The notes below the pieces were generated by a model. That model saw nothing but the letters and a program-made list of their open reading frames with translations, had not been told where the DNA came from and did not search any database. The position numbers were made by a program, and so were the translations under genes. Of a stretch of 64,000 bases of DNA, positions 34,642 through 47,301 are shown piece by piece. This DNA comes from Halogeometricum sp. S3BR5-2 (GTDB lineage: Archaea > Halobacteriota > Halobacteria > Halobacteriales > Haloferacaceae), in NCBI RefSeq assembly GCF_031624635.1, contig NZ_JAMQOQ010000009.1:1-64000 (forward strand), read 5' to 3'. The number at the start of each line of letters is the position of its first letter. The stretch's first letter is position 1.

Positions 34642-35241
34642 ATGTGCAAGGTTGAGCGGATCATCGAGAAACACGATCTCCCTGATTTAAACGAGGAGCT
34701 TCGCCGCCGGCATCGCGGTGGTGCCAGCCTTCGTGACCTTGAGAAATTCATCAATAAACGGGTTCTCGAACGATCCTTGCTCGAATCGGAAGTGGCTCTT
34801 ATCGGAGATACCGAAAGTATCTATCAAATTCTCCAGGGAGACGACGTCGGGCCCGGACGTCGGGCAGAGATTCGTTCACAGCTCAATCAGGCAGGTCCTC
34901 CCGTAAGTAACGTTGAAGATGACTTCGTATCTCATCAGACCGTAAAGCGCCACCTGCAGAATTGCTTGGATGTGGACACAAAACGACAGGCTCAGATCAC
35001 GCTTGACGACGCCGAGGATACTGTCGCGTGGGCGCAGTCACGCAATCTTTCGATGATCGAAAACACACTCAACAGGCTTCATAATGCGGGACTTATCGAT
35101 GCCAGTAACGTCGACGTCACCCAGTCGATTAGGGTCACGTGCGAAAAGACCGGGAAAACGTTCCATCTCAGAGAATTTCTCAAGCAGGGAGGTTGTGATC
35201 GCGACGGATCAACGAATGACACCAACGCAAACAGTAGCTGA
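34642..35241 (+). CDS. rdfA: Rod-determining factor RdfA family protein
   Basis: A 199-residue protein with the RdfA pattern: MCKVERIIEKHDLPDLNEEL at the start, GGASLRDLEKFINKRVLER, a DDVGPGRRAEIRSQLNQAG block, DDFVSHQTVKRHLQ, and a C-terminal zinc-ribbon-like piece with few cysteines left (VTCEKTGKTFHLREFLKQGG, Cys near 176 and 191). In Haloferax, RdfA is needed for rod shape; homologues stand next to a gene for an archaeal SMC-like protein, as here. The family call is from remembered sequence character. Likely the first gene of a four-gene unit. Confidence 0.75.
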   Translation: MCKVERIIEKHDLPDLNEELRRRHRGGASLRDLEKFINKRVLERSLLESEVALIGDTESIYQILQGDDVGPGRRAEIRSQLNQAGPPVSNVEDDFVSHQTVKRHLQNCLDVDTKRQAQITLDDAEDTVAWAQSRNLSMIENTLNRLHNAGLIDASNVDVTQSIRVTCEKTGKTFHLREFLKQGGCDRDGSTNDTNANSS

Positions 35242-35357
35242 CACATATAATTGAAGCTACTAACTGAGGCGGGCATTCGTATTCTGATCTCGATTCACGA
35301 CTAGTACCCCGTTGCGACTAAGTAACCAACCCTGGATAATTGACTTGCTCAAAACCT

Positions 35358-37274
35358 ATGCCGCAACACACGAACCCGAAGCCTGCAACGATGGTCGTCC
35401 AAAATATCGGTGGGATCGACACGTGTGAAATCGAATTCAATCCCGGCGTTACGGTATGTACCGGGCAAAACGCAACGAATCGTACCTCGCTATTGACGGC
35501 GATTGCCGGTGCGCTTGGCGGTTCAGCTGCCACGTTGAAAAGCGATGCCGACAAGGGACACGTCCAACTCGAGTTCGACGGCGAAACCTACACGCGCCAC
35601 TATCATCGCGGATCGGACGGCTCGGTTATCACTGATGGTGAGCCATATACCGATGATCCAGAACTCGTTGATCTGTTCGCATGTCTTCTCGAGGATAATC
35701 CAGCACGACGAGCTGTTGAGCGAGGAGACGATCTCCGTGATATCCTCATGCGTCCAGTCGATACCGAGGCCATTCAGGAACGTATTCGGGAGTTTGAACG
35801 TGAGCGGACGCAAATTACTGCCCGACTCGAAGAAATCGAGCGCAAACGCAACCACTTACCTGAGTTGGAAACACGACGGACGACTCTCGAAGACGAACTT
35901 GAAGCCACCACAGAGAAACTGGGTGCCCTGCGCGAACAGGTAGCCGACCACGACATTGACGCGGACGCAGCTGGAGCCGCTGAGGATCTCCTGAGCGACC
36001 TGGAGTCGTGTCGTCAGACACTCAGACAGACGCGTGACGAAATCGAAACACAGCAATCGACCCTCGAGGCGCTATCTGATGAACGCGAGGAGATCTCTGA
36101 CGAACTCGACAACTTGAAAGACCAGGATACGGACTGGGAGGACCTTGAGCGAGAACTCGACCAACTCCAAGACCGCGAGCGCGAACTTCAAGACTCAATC
36201 AACGACCTCTCTGCGATCGTCGAGTTCAACGACGAGCTTCTCAACTCATCCGATGAACTTGTCGATACGAATCCAGACGAACAGACCGTCACCGACGAGC
36301 TCAACCCGATGTCGGCCACGATCAAATGCTGGACCTGCGGGAATCACGTAGAACGTCGAGCTATCGATAGCCAACTGGAGGAACTTCGAACCGTCATTGG
36401 GGAAAAACGGTCCGAGCGACAGGAAGTACAGGATGAAATCGCTGAGCTTCGTGAGCAACTCGACCAGCTCCAGTCAGCTGAACGCCGACGACGTGAATGC
36501 GAAGAGCGACTTGACGAAAACGACCGGCAGAGACAGCGCCGAGAACAGCGAGTCAACGACCTCGAAAAGAAAGTTACTGAGCTCCGAGAGACGATTCGTG
36601 AGCTAGAAGAGGAGGTCAAAGAGACCGAGGAGTTCCGCGAGAGTGAGCTGGTAGAGCAGTATGAGCGGCTCTCCGAGCTTGAATACGAACGGGGGCAAAT
36701 CGAACAGGAACTAAACGACGTCGAAGACGAACTCCGGGACCTGGAGTCACTGGCAGATGAGCAAGAACAGCTCGAAGCGCAGAAAGCGCAGCTCCAAGAG
36801 GAACTCGAATCGCTACGGACGCGCATCGAGGACCTCGAACGTGACGCGGTCGAGGCGTTTAATGAACATATGGCCGAGGTGCTGTCCTTGTTGGAGTATC
36901 AAAACATTGAGCGGGTTTGGATTGAGCGGAAAGTACCGAATGATGGACCTGAGGGAGTATTCGAGCTCCACGTGGTGCGGTCGACTGAGAACGGGACGAT
37001 GTACGAAGATACGGTCGACCATTTAAGCGAAAGCGAACGCGAAGTGATCGGGCTGGTGGTCGCACTAGCGGGCTATCTCGTCCACGAAGTGTATGAAACG
37101 GTCCCCGTGATGCTGCTGGACTCCTTAGAAGCTATCGACGCCGGTCGCATCGCCCGACTCATCGAGTACATCGCTGAGTTCGCATCCTATCTCATCGTTG
37201 CATTGCTTGAAGAGGACGCCCAAGATCTCAACGACACGTATACCCGACTATCGTCGGATACCATCGGCTCGTAA
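35358..37274 (+). CDS. Archaea-specific SMC-related protein with zinc hook (Rad50/SMC-like ATPase)
   Basis: About 638 residues. Residues near 25-45 carry the Walker A (CTGQNATNRTSLLTAI). Two long coiled-coil arms (about 130-310 and 325-500) flank a zinc-hook CxxC (IKCWTCGNHVE, about residue 320). The C-terminal head has the signature-like HLSESEREVIGLVVALAGYL and Walker B VPVMLLDSLEAID. It belongs to the haloarchaeal SMC-related proteins found beside rdfA, presumed to act on chromosome or membrane organisation. Start: an in-frame TTG at 35340 also exists; the ATG at 35358 is preferred. Confidence 0.83.
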   Translation: MPQHTNPKPATMVVQNIGGIDTCEIEFNPGVTVCTGQNATNRTSLLTAIAGALGGSAATLKSDADKGHVQLEFDGETYTRHYHRGSDGSVITDGEPYTDDPELVDLFACLLEDNPARRAVERGDDLRDILMRPVDTEAIQERIREFERERTQITARLEEIERKRNHLPELETRRTTLEDELEATTEKLGALREQVADHDIDADAAGAAEDLLSDLESCRQTLRQTRDEIETQQSTLEALSDEREEISDELDNLKDQDTDWEDLERELDQLQDRERELQDSINDLSAIVEFNDELLNSSDELVDTNPDEQTVTDELNPMSATIKCWTCGNHVERRAIDSQLEELRTVIGEKRSERQEVQDEIAELREQLDQLQSAERRRRECEERLDENDRQRQRREQRVNDLEKKVTELRETIRELEEEVKETEEFRESELVEQYERLSELEYERGQIEQELNDVEDELRDLESLADEQEQLEAQKAQLQEELESLRTRIEDLERDAVEAFNEHMAEVLSLLEYQNIERVWIERKVPNDGPEGVFELHVVRSTENGTMYEDTVDHLSESEREVIGLVVALAGYLVHEVYETVPVMLLDSLEAIDAGRIARLIEYIAEFASYLIVALLEEDAQDLNDTYTRLSSDTIGS

Positions 37275-41612: not shown

Positions 41613-42653
41613 ATGGCCGATTTCAGCGAAGACATCGCTGAGCGAGCAACCGACCTACAGCAACTCGCTATCACTAATCCTTCAGAGGTTCCTCTCGACG
41701 AATTGCACGAGATCATTTCGACACCGACCGTCTCACCCAACACACATGGGGGTGCCATCGTCGCTCTACTCAACGTCGCCCGTGCCCGTGATGACATCGG
41801 GTCAGCATTTGTCGATGACTTAGACCGCTTACTCAATCGACCATCCCTCAACGACGCGCTCGTTCTTCGCTGTCTCCGTCAGCTAGCGGTGAATGATCCA
41901 ACCGCCGTCCTCAGGATTCAAGACGGAATCACTAATCGAATCACGCTCGACGATTCCGAGACTACTCAGGCTGCAACGGGATGCTGCGTCGAGCTTGCAA
42001 GTACAGATCCACAGACATTCGTCGATCAAGTTCCGATGCTCAGTGCCCTGCTCGACATCGAGGACGAGACGATTCGAACGAACGCGATCTATATCCTCTC
42101 GCAAATCGCCCACGAGTATCCAGAAGAGGTGAAGCCGATAGTCCCGCAACTGGTTGCGGGGATTACTGAACGCGATCAGTCGTACCAGACGAACGCGTTG
42201 TCGGCGCTCGGGGCAATAACCTCCGCGTATCCAGCCACTGCGAAATCAACCACTGAAATCTTGGCTGAGCTAACGTCTGCATCGGCGCTGAAGGTGCGTG
42301 CTAATGCAGCCGCTTTACTTGCCGATATCGCCAAGGAACATCCTGACGCCGTCGAGGACCATGTGCCGGCCCTGATTGAATGCTTCCACAGTGATGACGA
42401 ATTTCTCTGTGGGAACGCTGCCTCCGCGGTTCTTCACGTCGGCGTTCATAATCGATCAGCCGTCGAGGAGGCGATTCCAGCTCTCATTGAACTCTTGGAC
42501 GATCCCTCGCCAGTCGTCCGTCGAAACGCCTGCAAAGCACTCGGACAGCTAGACGCGACGGTCGCGCTCGTCCAGCTTCGCTCCGTTGCAGAATCCGACC
42601 CTGACGAGAAAGTCCGGAAATTGGCATCGTGGGCCATCGACGGGATATCGTAG
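41613..42653 (+). CDS. HEAT-repeat protein
   Basis: A 346-residue all-helical protein of HEAT/armadillo-type repeats of about 38-40 residues, for example LLDIEDETIRTNAIYILSQI, LTSASALKVRANAAALLADI, FHSDDEFLCGNAASAVLHVG, LLDDPSPVVRRNACKALGQL. Such repeats form a protein-binding solenoid. No catalytic domain. It is preceded by the perfect TTAATCTTA palindrome and is convergent with the PIN-domain gene of the Argonaute locus. Function unknown; a scaffold or adaptor is likely. Confidence 0.8.
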   Translation: MADFSEDIAERATDLQQLAITNPSEVPLDELHEIISTPTVSPNTHGGAIVALLNVARARDDIGSAFVDDLDRLLNRPSLNDALVLRCLRQLAVNDPTAVLRIQDGITNRITLDDSETTQAATGCCVELASTDPQTFVDQVPMLSALLDIEDETIRTNAIYILSQIAHEYPEEVKPIVPQLVAGITERDQSYQTNALSALGAITSAYPATAKSTTEILAELTSASALKVRANAAALLADIAKEHPDAVEDHVPALIECFHSDDEFLCGNAASAVLHVGVHNRSAVEEAIPALIELLDDPSPVVRRNACKALGQLDATVALVQLRSVAESDPDEKVRKLASWAIDGIS

Positions 42654-42692: not shown

Positions 42693-43457
42693 TCAGTCGC
42701 CGGCAGGCAGGTCGGGGTCGGCGAACTCGTCTTTGATATATACGACCGGAAGCCCCAACACGGCCCTGATGCGGTCGCGGTTTCCGTACATGTGCGACTT
42801 GTCCGAGGTCACTATTTTTCCAATGAGGTTTCGGTTGCGCTGGTGATTTGCATCGCACAGAATCACCTTGTCAACATACCCATCAACGAACCAAAGACGT
42901 CGATTCCGCTCTTCCTCGGTCCACTCACTTGTCGGGCCCCACGTGAGACGACTCTGAAGTTGGGCCCGTGTCTCCAGTGCATCGGTAATGATGGTATCGC
43001 AGAGCGCGTCCATCGCCTCACGTGCCACCTTACTGGTCACCTGCTGGTCGCCGATTTCGTCGCGAAGAAAGCTCCGAATATTGGGACGAATAATCTCTCG
43101 GATCAGACGCTGAGGAAAAACGTTCTCCTCGATGCGAGTGACAGCGATAAACTCGTCAACGAGCGTTTCCAGATCCAGTTCCTCATCGGCGCAACTTCGA
43201 AGTTTAATCCCTAAGTTGGTCTGTGCAGCCCGAATTTTCGAAAACTTATCGCCGAACCTCCCCTCATCGGTCTCCCAGCTCACCTCTGCCGAATCGAGGT
43301 AGTTCTCTGAGGTGCTGTTGCAGTATTCGTAAATCACCGCCCGACTCGTCGAGAGTGAGTTGTCGGTCTCGAAGAGTCGTTCGGCCTCGTCGCGCCATAG
43401 GTCGTGAAGGAACGTCACCCCGACGAGTGGGCCGGTGTCAAGGAAATAGCGTGACAT
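42693..43457 (-). CDS. PIN-domain nuclease, long form
   Basis: A 254-residue protein with the four acidic residues of the PIN fold: Asp7 (YFLDTGPLVG), Glu44 (AVIYEYCN), Asp202 (VILCDANHQRN) and Asp219 (IVTSDKSHMYG). The order and spacing to the C-terminus (KVILCDANH...KIVTSDKSH) are those of VapC-like RNases, but a helical insert of about 120 residues between Glu44 and Asp202 makes it nearly twice the usual VapC length. It begins five bases after the upstream Panacea-like gene, so both are one operon. Likely an RNA-cleaving toxin or effector. Confidence 0.72.
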   Translation of the reverse strand: MSRYFLDTGPLVGVTFLHDLWRDEAERLFETDNSLSTSRAVIYEYCNSTSENYLDSAEVSWETDEGRFGDKFSKIRAAQTNLGIKLRSCADEELDLETLVDEFIAVTRIEENVFPQRLIREIIRPNIRSFLRDEIGDQQVTSKVAREAMDALCDTIITDALETRAQLQSRLTWGPTSEWTEEERNRRLWFVDGYVDKVILCDANHQRNRNLIGKIVTSDKSHMYGNRDRIRAVLGLPVVYIKDEFADPDLPAGD

Positions 43458-43462
43458 AGAAC

Positions 43463-44323
43463 TTATCCTGTCACCTCGAAATCGATGTAAGGCAAGACGA
43501 GTGCGTCTGCAGCTCTTCTCGAGGTCCTGTCGTCACGTGCGTTTGCTTCTGCCTTCTCGCGCTCCCAGCTACGAAGTAGAGAACGGAGCTGTCTCTTCGC
43601 ATCGTCCAAGCTGTCGAGGCTCAACTCACGTTCAATCTGCTCCCGCGTCAGACCGTCGTTCTCACGAACCGCGAGCTCCATACAGAAGAGCCGCCAGAAC
43701 GTCTTGGAATACTTCTTGGCTTCTTTGGGATCATACCCCGAAGAATCCAGCTCAGCGCTCATCAATCGGTACCAGATGTGAAGATCGTCCTCGTAGCCGG
43801 GGAAGGAGTCAGTTGGGAAGTCCTCAATAAAGTCGTACAGCGTCTCTCTCGTCGGTCCAGCATTCCGATCGAATGAGAGCGTCATCTGTGCCGAGTCTGC
43901 AGTCCCCAACTGCTTATCCAGTCGCCGGTAGTGTCGCTGTATTTCGTATGGCGCATCGTCGTACATCCGGTCGGTGAGTCCCTCGAGTCCGAGGTCGTAG
44001 TAACGTTCAAGCGCGCGACTTGCCGCTTGACGTCCCCGCCGAATTGTCCCTTCTGGTCTGTCGATGTCAGCAGCAGCGACGTCACAAATTACTGGATCGT
44101 CGTTTGGCTCGCCCCCGGTGTGAACGCCGGTATTAGCAGTCGCCGTCATTGTACCATACATATACCAGAAGGTCGGGATGTCGGTCGTAACCCGCTCACT
44201 GTCTAATTCCTCTTTCACGAAATAGAGCAGCTTGTGAACGGCCTTTCGGGAGAGGGGACTGTCGTACCTGTGTTCGTCGAAGAGAAGTGCAACCACCTCA
44301 CTCACGCTCAGTTTCCCATGCAT
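43463..44323 (-). CDS. Possible Panacea/SocA-like protein upstream of the PIN gene
   Basis: A 286-residue soluble protein. The N-terminus (SVSEVVALLFDEHRYDSPLS, RKAVHKLLYFVKEELDSERV, DIPTFWYMYGTM) recalls the Panacea/SocA-like (GepA) domain, in which a KLxKLLYF helix starts the fold, found in antitoxins and proteolytic adaptors. The middle and C-terminal parts are helical and charged (EQIERELSLDSLDDAKRQLR). If right, it is the antitoxin partner of the PIN nuclease directly downstream (five-base gap). It is divergent from the Argonaute operon with 96 bases between the start codons. The domain call is tentative. Confidence 0.42.
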   Translation of the reverse strand: MHGKLSVSEVVALLFDEHRYDSPLSRKAVHKLLYFVKEELDSERVTTDIPTFWYMYGTMTATANTGVHTGGEPNDDPVICDVAAADIDRPEGTIRRGRQAASRALERYYDLGLEGLTDRMYDDAPYEIQRHYRRLDKQLGTADSAQMTLSFDRNAGPTRETLYDFIEDFPTDSFPGYEDDLHIWYRLMSAELDSSGYDPKEAKKYSKTFWRLFCMELAVRENDGLTREQIERELSLDSLDDAKRQLRSLLRSWEREKAEANARDDRTSRRAADALVLPYIDFEVTG

Positions 44324-44337
44324 CGATTCGTCAACGT

Positions 44338-44366
44338 AGCATAAGAATTGGGCATTTATCTATGCT
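44338..44366. promoter_or_regulatory. Divergent promoter with inverted repeat AGCATA n17 TATGCT
   Basis: Six-base perfect arms with a 17-base AT-rich spacer, inside the 96-base region between the divergent Panacea-like/PIN and nuclease/Argonaute operons. A single operator here could control both. Weak evidence because the arms are short. Confidence 0.3.
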
Positions 44367-44419
44367 GTGGGTAGAGGAGAAACACTATCTATCAAAGAGT
44401 ACGGATGTCCAGTAACTAA

Positions 44420-45874
44420 ATGCCGATATACAATCACGAAGGAACGAGCGAGGCTAGCGGGGACAAGGGTGAAAAGTACAAGCAGGCGATAGAAGAGTAC
44501 CTCCGCGCTCGGGGGTACAGCATCGAACGACGGTCGAATCATCACAGCACGACCGAAGATCTGGCCGCGGTCACCGTCGACGAGAGTTTCCACTATCTCA
44601 GCGGCGAGAAGGTAGGTGACGACGTCAAGAAGTTCGTACGGGTAGAGGCCAAGGGAACCAAGCTGTCGCGACTAGATGACGACTTTCTCACTGAGCTAGC
44701 TCGCGTTTTCATCGACTATTGTGAGCAGGACGGAGGATTCGAATACCACATTTATGCATCGTACCTCCAAGCCTTTGACAAGTGGGAGCGAATATTCGAT
44801 CCCAGGACGAACACCCCGGAGTACATCAGTGACTACTTCGATACCCTGAGGGAGAGGCAGAAACTGAATGACGCCGAGGAAGCAGCCCTCCAAGACCTTG
44901 GAGTAGAAGACTTCGAGTGGTTTCTCGCCGATGTCTTCGTCCACCGCGCCAGCTGGAACCGCCTCGGACAGATGGCAGAGGATGAGCGGTCTGTGAATCG
45001 CTCCAAATGGGACTTCTACACCCGAGAGAACTCACCCTCGCGAGAAGCCGAGACTCTCGTCGCCAACTTCCTCCGTATTAGTGGGCTACCAGAATCGATC
45101 TACATCGGTGAAAACCTCGCAGACCATCCTGAGGACATCTACGCCGACAATCCTCGGCACCTGCCCATCTGGGTCGAGTCAGGCCTGTTCTACAGCCTGA
45201 TTCCAATGGAAGAGATGCCTGACTCGCTCCGTCCGTTCGTCGATGGGGAGTCTGTTCAGAGCCGACCGTTCGTCAGCTGGCTAGAGAGTGAAGATACTGC
45301 TCCCAACGTTGCGAAGCGACTGTTCAACCGCGAGATACGACGACGCGCAGTCGACGGGTACGAAGATTGTAGAATGGTTCGCCACCAGTACGAGAATCGC
45401 CTGCTCTTCAAACACGAAGGCGGGGGATCTGGCGAAGAGGACGATTCTCCGGCAAAGACGAGGGTCGAGGGATGGGACGTTGCGATGGATTGGGGCGCAT
45501 ATACCGCCCATCGCTATGCGTCACCGGTTGTCAAGCAATATAAGGAGCAGTTCTACGTCTTCATCGACACTGGGTGGATGTTCTCACATTCCGGTCGCGG
45601 CACCAGCATTGTAAAAGGCGACACCGCCAGCAAACTCCATGACAAACTCCAAAGTAGCGGCCATTACCGTCCAAATAATCTGAAGGCACAATTCCGACAG
45701 TGGCGCGCATACCTCGGAATGGACGAATCACCACCGCTTGAGGAGGCAGGTATAGAGGATGACCCCCAACGACTGGAGTTCGAGCACGAAGAGGGGTTAG
45801 AGCTTCGCGTGCGGCCTCCGAAAGACGGCTCCGAACGGGAACTTCTCATGCAACGAGGTGTGGACGCGTACTGA
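44420..45874 (+). CDS. Putative PD-(D/E)XK nuclease with APAZ-like region, partner of short Argonaute
   Basis: A 484-residue protein. Residues 15-105 look like a PD-(D/E)XK nuclease fold: a helix (KYKQAIEEYLRARGY), an acidic residue in TTEDLAAV (Asp47), then VRVEAKG with Glu76-x-Lys78 and a helix DDDFLTELARVFIDYCEQ. Residues about 290-430 (FNREIRRRAVDGYEDCRMVR, GWDVAMDWGAYTAHRYASPV, FYVFIDTGWMFSHSGRG, YRPNNLKAQFRQWRAYLG) probably correspond to the APAZ region that replaces the N-PAZ half of Argonaute. Its stop overlaps the Argonaute start by one base, the usual layout of short-pAgo systems. Guide-triggered nuclease activity is inferred, not shown. Confidence 0.6.
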   Translation: MPIYNHEGTSEASGDKGEKYKQAIEEYLRARGYSIERRSNHHSTTEDLAAVTVDESFHYLSGEKVGDDVKKFVRVEAKGTKLSRLDDDFLTELARVFIDYCEQDGGFEYHIYASYLQAFDKWERIFDPRTNTPEYISDYFDTLRERQKLNDAEEAALQDLGVEDFEWFLADVFVHRASWNRLGQMAEDERSVNRSKWDFYTRENSPSREAETLVANFLRISGLPESIYIGENLADHPEDIYADNPRHLPIWVESGLFYSLIPMEEMPDSLRPFVDGESVQSRPFVSWLESEDTAPNVAKRLFNREIRRRAVDGYEDCRMVRHQYENRLLFKHEGGGSGEEDDSPAKTRVEGWDVAMDWGAYTAHRYASPVVKQYKEQFYVFIDTGWMFSHSGRGTSIVKGDTASKLHDKLQSSGHYRPNNLKAQFRQWRAYLGMDESPPLEEAGIEDDPQRLEFEHEEGLELRVRPPKDGSERELLMQRGVDAY

Positions 45875-47301
45875 TGTCTGGGTTCAGAGTGGATTACCTC
45901 TCGGAGCCGGAACTCGTCTTCGCCGGTGGCAATACGGCGAAGGACCCGCGGAGCGGACTGCTGAAGTACGGGCCCTGTCCACCGCGTGACGGCTCTATTC
46001 ATGAGGTGGTACGGGTTGGACTGATTGGTGATAGCTGGTCTATCTCGGCGATGCGAGATCTGCTTGAGGACATGCGTTATGGGATCCTTCCCGAGGGAGA
46101 CGACCGACAGCGGTGGAATCAACCGTTCCCGGGACTCGGCCCTAACTCTGAGCTCAAGATGTCGTTCGATCAGCGTCCGATGTGGCGGGGCGAAATCGAA
46201 CATGATGACATCGACTCACTGAGCGACGTCCGCGATGATGCCGACCGTGTTGAGATGGCATTGGATTACATCAAGTACCAGATAGAGGGCGTCTGCTCGA
46301 CAACCCCGAGCCCGGACGTCGTCATTGTAAGCATCCCGGAAACCCTCGCTGAGCTGTTCACAGAGGGCAAGAAAGCAGATACCATTCGGACGGCCGACAC
46401 CGACTTCAGAAGCCGCATCAAGCTCCTGGGGATGCTTAATCAGACTCCGACACAGCTCATCGGCCCCAAGACCCTCCGCGGAGAAGATGTCCAACCACGT
46501 CGAGAGGTAGCGTGGAATCTCGCAGTGGGTCTACTCTACAAGGCTCGAAGAGGACGACCATGGAAGCTCACTGAGCTAAAATCGAACACCTGCTACGCCG
46601 GCATATCCTTCTACGATGAGCGCGGGACGGATCCGGACACTAGAGCGTCAATCGCGCAGGTGTTCATGGAGACCGGAGAGAATTTCGTCATCCGTGGCGA
46701 CCCGGTCACCGACATCGCCAGTGATGCCGATACGGGACGGACACATCTGTCGGCTGGAGATGCCGAGCAGCTAATCCAAACCATCTTGGAGCGGTACGGC
46801 GACCGAAGGCAGGATCGCCCTGACCGGTTGGTGATTCACAAGTCCTCCAATTTCTGGGAGCAGGAGACAGAAGGCTTCAAATCTGGCTCCGAAGACGTGA
46901 GACAGCGAGACTTCATTACCATTCGAGAGCATCACCCAATTCGCCTCTTCAGCAACACGCAGTACCCGCCTCTGAGGGGTACAGTCGCCCTGCCACCGGG
47001 GAGAGAAGAGTACTACCTCTACACGAAGGGATTCATTCCAGAGATTTCTGCGTACGCTGAGTCCGGCACTCCAAACCCAATCGTCGTCCGTCCTCATGAG
47101 GACGTGAATGCTACCTCGTACCGGGAAATCTGTGAGGAGATACTCTCGTTCTCGAAGCTCGATTGGAACAGCTCTGACTTCTGCAAGAAGCTCCCCGTGA
47201 CAGTCGGGATCGCTGACGCTGTCAGCGACATTCTCGCAGAACCCATGGCACAGAACCTACCCGACGGGGCGTTCCCGTACCACTACTACTATTACATGTG
47301 A
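45874..47301 (+). CDS. Short prokaryotic Argonaute (MID-PIWI), catalytically inactive
   Basis: A 475-residue MID-PIWI protein without N and PAZ domains. MID about 40-205 (HEVVRVGLIGDSW, PDVVIVSIPETL). PIWI from about 208: REVAWNLAVGLLYKARRGRP, then CYAGISFYDERG, where the first catalytic Asp of the DEDX tetrad should be but Ile-Ser-Phe stands (240-248). Later DRLVIHKSSNFWEQETEGF (318-335) shows His-Lys where active proteins have Asp. LPVTVGIADAVSDIL and the aromatic end YHYYYYM at the C-terminus are typical; the terminal carboxylate helps bind the guide 5' end. So guide-directed target sensing without slicing is expected, with killing or signalling by the partner gene. Confidence 0.8.
   Translation: MSGFRVDYLSEPELVFAGGNTAKDPRSGLLKYGPCPPRDGSIHEVVRVGLIGDSWSISAMRDLLEDMRYGILPEGDDRQRWNQPFPGLGPNSELKMSFDQRPMWRGEIEHDDIDSLSDVRDDADRVEMALDYIKYQIEGVCSTTPSPDVVIVSIPETLAELFTEGKKADTIRTADTDFRSRIKLLGMLNQTPTQLIGPKTLRGEDVQPRREVAWNLAVGLLYKARRGRPWKLTELKSNTCYAGISFYDERGTDPDTRASIAQVFMETGENFVIRGDPVTDIASDADTGRTHLSAGDAEQLIQTILERYGDRRQDRPDRLVIHKSSNFWEQETEGFKSGSEDVRQRDFITIREHHPIRLFSNTQYPPLRGTVALPPGREEYYLYTKGFIPEISAYAESGTPNPIVVRPHEDVNATSYREICEEILSFSKLDWNSSDFCKKLPVTVGIADAVSDILAEPMAQNLPDGAFPYHYYYYM

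Follow-up and report, generated by a model that had tools for sequence, protein, structure and literature searches.

The locus described here bears on two questions about short Argonautes, namely where their guides come from and how a suicidal form of immunity is kept safe, and a divergent gene pair within it, which we call pan and pin, is a concrete candidate for one such role. The locus lies in Halogeometricum sp. S3BR5-2, in a 64,000-nt stretch of contig NZ_JAMQOQ010000009.1 (positions 1 to 64,000, referred to below as the window), and we investigated what its genes encode, how constantly they occur together, and which functions their conservation suggests.

An effector-Argonaute pair of a catalogued kind

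The core of the locus consists of two genes on the plus strand: an effector partner of 484 aa (44420..45874), with an N-terminal PD-(D/E)XK-like domain and a C-terminal APAZ region, and a catalytically inactive short Argonaute (MID-PIWI) of 475 aa (45874..47301), the last base of the partner's TGA stop codon being the first base of the Argonaute ATG. An earlier note on this DNA, made from the sequence alone, had described both open reading frames and their one-base overlap, and its identification of a short inactive Argonaute with an APAZ-bearing partner agrees with matches from PADLOC, the PDB and hhalign. The Argonaute matched PADLOC pAgo_I over its full length (E 5e-134), while the partner matched Aga_REase_Archaea with an E-value of 2e-174 over positions 1-415 of the 416-position profile, a model also matched by all 11 aligned partners. 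PADLOC lists Aga_REase_Archaea and pAgo_I as PDLC02417/PDLC02376, and both matches lie far outside the range of chance. The core is of a kind already catalogued in PADLOC-DB 2.0 (2023): the earlier note had expected it to extend the known set, but this release already holds an archaeal REase model for exactly that family. As modelled there, the system comprises the effector and the Argonaute only, and the divergent Panacea-like/PIN pair falls outside it.

The core system is common in haloarchaea, where many copies are plasmid-borne and most are annotated as "hypothetical protein". A scan of genome contigs with the partner returned one near-identical locus, and a scan of viral contigs with the Argonaute alignment returned three loci, one of them with a partner of the Aga_REase_Archaea-type family. 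A 36.5-kb contig classed as viral (IMGVR_UViG_3300037843_001625; L029/L148) encodes a 43%-identical Argonaute with an APAZ-nuclease partner, and pan-pin was not found in the stretch of it that was read.

Inactive PIWI domain and guide pocket of the Argonaute

Sequence features of the Argonaute were assessed in an alignment of ten relatives, Methanosarcina included, with identities down to 41%. The first catalytic Asp of PIWI is replaced within the motif CYAGISFY (46591..46614, plus strand), of which C240, G243, I244, S245 and F246 are invariant, and the third catalytic position reads HKSS, with H322, K323 and S325 invariant. The protein ends in HYYYYM (47281..47298, plus strand), and the invariance of Y471, Y472, Y474 and M475 in all ten aligned archaeal members indicates that this tail is not a product of chance. 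The ISF replacement, the HKSS motif and the terminal run of tyrosines plus Met had all been picked out beforehand, and proved conserved across the ten relatives. Against the PDB, the Argonaute matched solved short-Argonaute chains with E-values of 1e-54 to 3e-50, those of SPARDA among the nearest and SPARTA also represented.

In NbaAgo, the 5′ end of the guide is held by F182, K187, Q224, N232 and K240 (PMC12205087). These residues align to F178, K183, Q207, N215 and K223 of the haloarchaeal Argonaute, all five invariant, and the conserved pocket supports a 5′-phosphorylated guide. Two further NbaAgo residues, W201 (A1 stacking) and N451, have no conservation in the archaeal alignment, and the first-base preference of the guide may differ because the A1-stacking tryptophan is not kept.

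Effector partner and comparison with SPARDA

The partner alignment comprised 11 sequences from Halobacteria and Methanosarcina, with identities down to 21%. When the resulting profile was searched against the PDB, it matched only SPARDA DREN-APAZ or DUF4365 chains, and these over its C-terminal part (9jsb, 9qbl, 9qbq and 9qbp; E 5e-10 to 6e-9); hhalign against bacterial SPARDA APAZ gave a score of 113 (P 7e-16), with a shuffled maximum of 19. Homology of the C-terminal half to SPARDA APAZ is established by these profile comparisons, which place the region at about residues 200-470; the segment marked on the plus strand (45032..45829) covers about residues 205-470. An APAZ region had previously been suggested at residues 290-430, correctly as to its presence and too narrowly as to its extent.

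The N-terminal half contains a putative nuclease active site formed by D47 (44558-44560), E76 (44645-44647) and K78 (44651-44653), on the plus strand and invariant over all 11 partners. Its hhalign score against DREN/DUF4365 was 18.0 (P 0.07), within the noise of column-shuffled controls (maximum 20.7), and a Pfam search of the N-terminal domain gave no match; the AF2 model of the partner, built from two to three usable sequences, was too poor for fold inference (pLDDT 34.6). From its invariant motif, the most fitting description of the N-terminus is a PD-(D/E)XK-like domain that forms a separate family, a label taken from the motif since neither DREN/DUF4365 nor Pfam matched. The acidic residue and ExK pattern noted earlier is thus D47...E76-x-K78, and the motif side of that PD-(D/E)XK proposal stands; a Pfam match to go with it was not obtained, and the accompanying analogy to DREN-type effectors is not supported, the domain being no nearer to DREN/DUF4365 than shuffled columns are. 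Between D47 and E76, the window's partner has an insertion of about a dozen residues (44561-44644), found in only two of the other aligned partners (L028 and L032).

Compared with SPARDA (NbaSPARDA, PMC12205087, and the PDB chains above), the core has the same layout, with an inactive short Argonaute directly 3′ of an APAZ partner, and shares homologous APAZ and MID-PIWI regions, an N-terminal nuclease-type domain and conserved contacts to the guide 5′ end. The differences are an active site of D...ExK as opposed to D41...Q60-x-K62 in SPARDA, an N-terminus that is DREN/DUF4365 in the SPARDA partner and not detectably so in the haloarchaeal one, and two extra divergent genes, of which there are none at the bacterial loci examined. 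As far as sequence tells, the core would work like SPARDA while failing one SPARDA feature, the DREN domain, in whose place the N-terminus with its PD-(D/E)XK-like motif may act in a similar way. The haloarchaeal long-A pAgo-PLD system (APAP, PMC11442185) likewise combines an Argonaute with an auxiliary nuclease, but its Argonaute is long and catalytically active and its effector is unrelated to the one here.

A divergent Panacea-like/PIN gene pair

Across a 96-bp intergenic region (44324..44419), two minus-strand genes diverge from the core; the earlier note had the core pair right and overlooked these, leaving the locus two genes short. The first, pan (43463..44323; 286 aa), is a putative antitoxin or sensor whose N-terminal ~130 residues are Panacea-related, and the second, pin (42693..43457; 254 aa), encodes a PIN-like nuclease with conserved acidic residues, a putative toxin RNase. 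By hhalign, pan scored 40 against SocA_Panacea (shuffled maximum 16) with co-linear HK-LLYF...YG anchors, and the N-terminal ~50 residues of pin scored 36-39 against haloarchaeal PIN/VapC (shuffled maxima 19 and 17), while negative-control pairings stayed at noise. Residues D7, E44, D196, D202 and D219 of pin are kept in 23-24 of 24 members. Neither protein reaches a Pfam cut-off: PIN matches to pin fell below it in two of nine members and pan had no accepted match, the HTH and GrpE-like identities suggested for pan being rejected as chance-level (E 0.006-0.1). The AF2 model of pin, again from two to three usable sequences, was too poor for fold inference (pLDDT 47), and given the sub-threshold Pfam scores and the poor models, both assignments stay at the level of strong inference. 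PADLOC had no match for pan or pin, and a viral-contig scan with pan returned no relative.

The natural reading of this pair is a toxin-antitoxin-like module. As in PanAT pairs, in which Panacea antitoxins accompany diverse toxins (PMC10440598), a Panacea-related protein stands beside a putative nuclease toxin, but the haloarchaeal pan is larger, below the Pfam threshold and tied to Argonautes. With VapBC/PIN toxins, pin has the acidic residues D7, E44, D196/D202 and D219 in common; it differs in length (~250 aa, including a long insertion in its middle part, versus ~130 aa) and in having a partner that is not a small VapB-type antitoxin. Away from Argonautes, distant pan homologues were followed by a PIN-like gene in 10 of 11 weak matches in haloarchaeal genomes, and these free-standing pairs (L095-L104, in G628, G604, G225, G480, G675, G676, G358, G019, G506 and G537) apparently represent an undescribed haloarchaeal toxin-antitoxin-like family. 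A search of mainly open-access literature, preprints excluded, yielded no account of a short pAgo with a PIN domain or of an Argonaute with a Panacea antitoxin; the Panacea-PIN coupling is the new part of the locus, although a prior description may exist.

Association of pan-pin with short Argonautes

To define how constant the association is, 391 Halobacteria genomes were surveyed with profiles of the Argonaute, pan and pin, and the loci were then read. There were 36 Argonaute matches in 34 genomes, 33 of which had pan and pin divergently upstream within 6 kb, and a 34th case (G460) was split by a contig end. The remaining two are degenerate, one an Argonaute without a detectable partner (G412:C3, L036) and the other a truncated Argonaute remnant (G033, L193). 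The hypergeometric P-value for co-occurrence, uncorrected for phylogeny, was 2e-43, and no intact effector-Argonaute pair without pan-pin was seen in the sampled Halobacteria. Two plasmids (L040 and L192) carry an Argonaute with only ~120 residues of the upstream partner and no pan-pin. On annotated plasmids of Halapricum, Haloarcula, Haloplanus, Natrinema, Halopenitus and Haloterrigena, two opposite-strand hypothetical genes lie upstream of the pair, and these are homologous to the window's pan and pin. The four genes of the locus co-diversify: in a set of 21 loci, distance matrices computed for pan, pin, effector and Argonaute correlate pairwise with r of 0.87-0.95, compared with a maximum of 0.44 in 2000 permutations.

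Such co-inheritance could be explained by plasmid linkage alone if pan-pin were an independent toxin-antitoxin neighbour in defence islands, as many of the loci are plasmid-borne and the surroundings of Argonaute genes are, as a rule, enriched in toxin-antitoxin genes (PMC2743648). We regard this as very improbable, since all intact loci, which come from several families, have one and the same gene order and orientation, the strong pan clade occurred only beside Argonautes or an Argonaute remnant in the 391 genomes, and pan-pin has re-associated with an unrelated Argonaute type, described below.

The fixed divergent arrangement also invites the reading that pan is mainly a transcriptional switch of the divergent promoter, with pan-pin setting expression of the Argonaute arm. 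The shared intergenic region is short (68-167 bp in 24 loci), and single pan members give faint HTH matches. However, no conserved operator or palindrome was found in the 24 divergent intergenic regions, and a conserved operator was accordingly rejected; at loci with a split Argonaute, pan-pin is co-directional with the Argonaute genes in one operon; and conservation of a PIN active site would be superfluous in a mere regulator. A mainly regulatory role is improbable on these grounds.

In Methanosarcina (L135-L137) the effector-Argonaute pair occurs without pan-pin, and the core therefore does not strictly need it; pan-pin is likewise absent from the more distant relatives L138-L140. One Methanosarcina-like genome (G444, 5.75 Mb) has a VapC-like PIN gene at a distance of ~1.6 kb on the upstream side of the pair (L135, 11874-12227). 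In a separate haloarchaeal case (G261; L131, 6820-9311), the short Argonaute is split by an insertion with a transposase-like ORF, and the other three genes of the locus are intact. The possibility that the Argonaute itself serves as the antitoxin of pin was rejected, as pan-pin survives there despite the disrupted Argonaute, and from this persistence we argue that pan rather than the Argonaute would restrain the PIN protein.

Recurrence of pan-pin with a split Argonaute

In two genomes (G633, L106; G469, L107), the genes that come after pan-pin, in the same orientation, encode a protein of 331/332 aa and an Argonaute of 436 aa with PWFL as its last residues; a single long-pAgo model (PDLC02379) matches the former with its N-terminal and the latter with its C-terminal portion. 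The G633 Argonaute matched AfAgo in the PDB, and by these matches both loci encode a split, AfAgo-type Argonaute (compare PMC10954474). The Haloplanus rallus plasmid pMBLA003601 (L156, 2979-8615) has the identical five-gene order, its downstream gene encoding 438 aa; L107 likewise has a downstream 438-aa gene, whose product has a C-terminus that looks membrane-spanning by eye. This split long-B AfAgo-N/AfAgo type, found behind pan-pin in L106, L107 and L156, belongs to another Argonaute lineage, has another effector and is absent from the window.

In the pan tree, every Argonaute-linked copy falls on one side of a branch with 100/97 support, and the pans of split-Argonaute loci are nested among those of short-Argonaute loci, although some branches are long and exact placement is unsure. 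Because of this nesting, pan-pin seems to have been recruited to a second kind of Argonaute. It is not simply the helper of one particular effector, since the two Argonaute types come with different effectors. A role of pan-pin as the Argonaute's own effector was rejected, short-pAgo loci having REase-APAZ and two split-Argonaute loci the 438-aa gene.

Guide production is the main rival to pan-pin as a second arm or safeguard. Here the PIN protein would cut transcripts to 5′-phosphorylated RNAs for the Argonaute, with pan as cofactor or regulator. PIN nucleases typically yield 5′-phosphate ends, and an upstream guide step would better fit a module common to two Argonaute types with differing downstream effectors. 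The best-studied relatives of these types, NbaSPARDA (PMC12205087) and AfAgo (PMC10954474), are both RNA-guided and DNA-targeting. Still, free-standing pan-PIN pairs occur without any Argonaute, relatives in Methanosarcina and in bacteria function, or are at any rate maintained, in its absence, and pan-pin is intact in G261 next to a broken Argonaute, all of which make a guide maker unlikely.

Proposed mechanism

Taken as a whole, we estimate a probability of roughly 55% that this is a four-gene defence locus in which a SPARDA-like RNA-guided suicide nuclease is joined by a toxin-antitoxin-like module of the Panacea-PIN kind; genomics shows that the two are coupled, and the role of pan-pin is our interpretation. 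The inactive short Argonaute would assemble with its partner through the latter's APAZ half and load a 5′-phosphorylated guide RNA. By analogy to SPARDA, guide pairing with invader DNA would then activate the PD-(D/E)XK-like nuclease at the N-terminus of the partner, and its degradation of nucleic acid would lead to cell death or arrest. The Panacea-related pan would meanwhile hold the PIN RNase in check, and most likely pan-pin would provide either a second abortive arm, one that cleaves RNA, or a safeguard, released on attack or when the Argonaute arm fails, which presupposes some communication between the arms.

More tentatively, pan-pin may be a dedicated accessory of inactive RNA-guided archaeal Argonautes in general, portable between the short type with REase-APAZ and the split long-B type, its PIN protein being either a guide maker or a second killer under Argonaute control; we would call this possible, with somewhat more doubt than belief. 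In a role of this kind, pan-pin would link toxin-antitoxin modules with Argonaute immunity, and the whole locus is amenable to gene removal in a culturable haloarchaeon.

Two neighbouring regions of the window may be mentioned. Adjoining pin is a gene for a HEAT-repeat protein (41613-42653), to which HEAT-containing defence models of PADLOC match weakly, and at 34642-37274, rdfA (rod-determining factor A, PF21811) adjoins a gene for an SMC-like AAA_23 protein.
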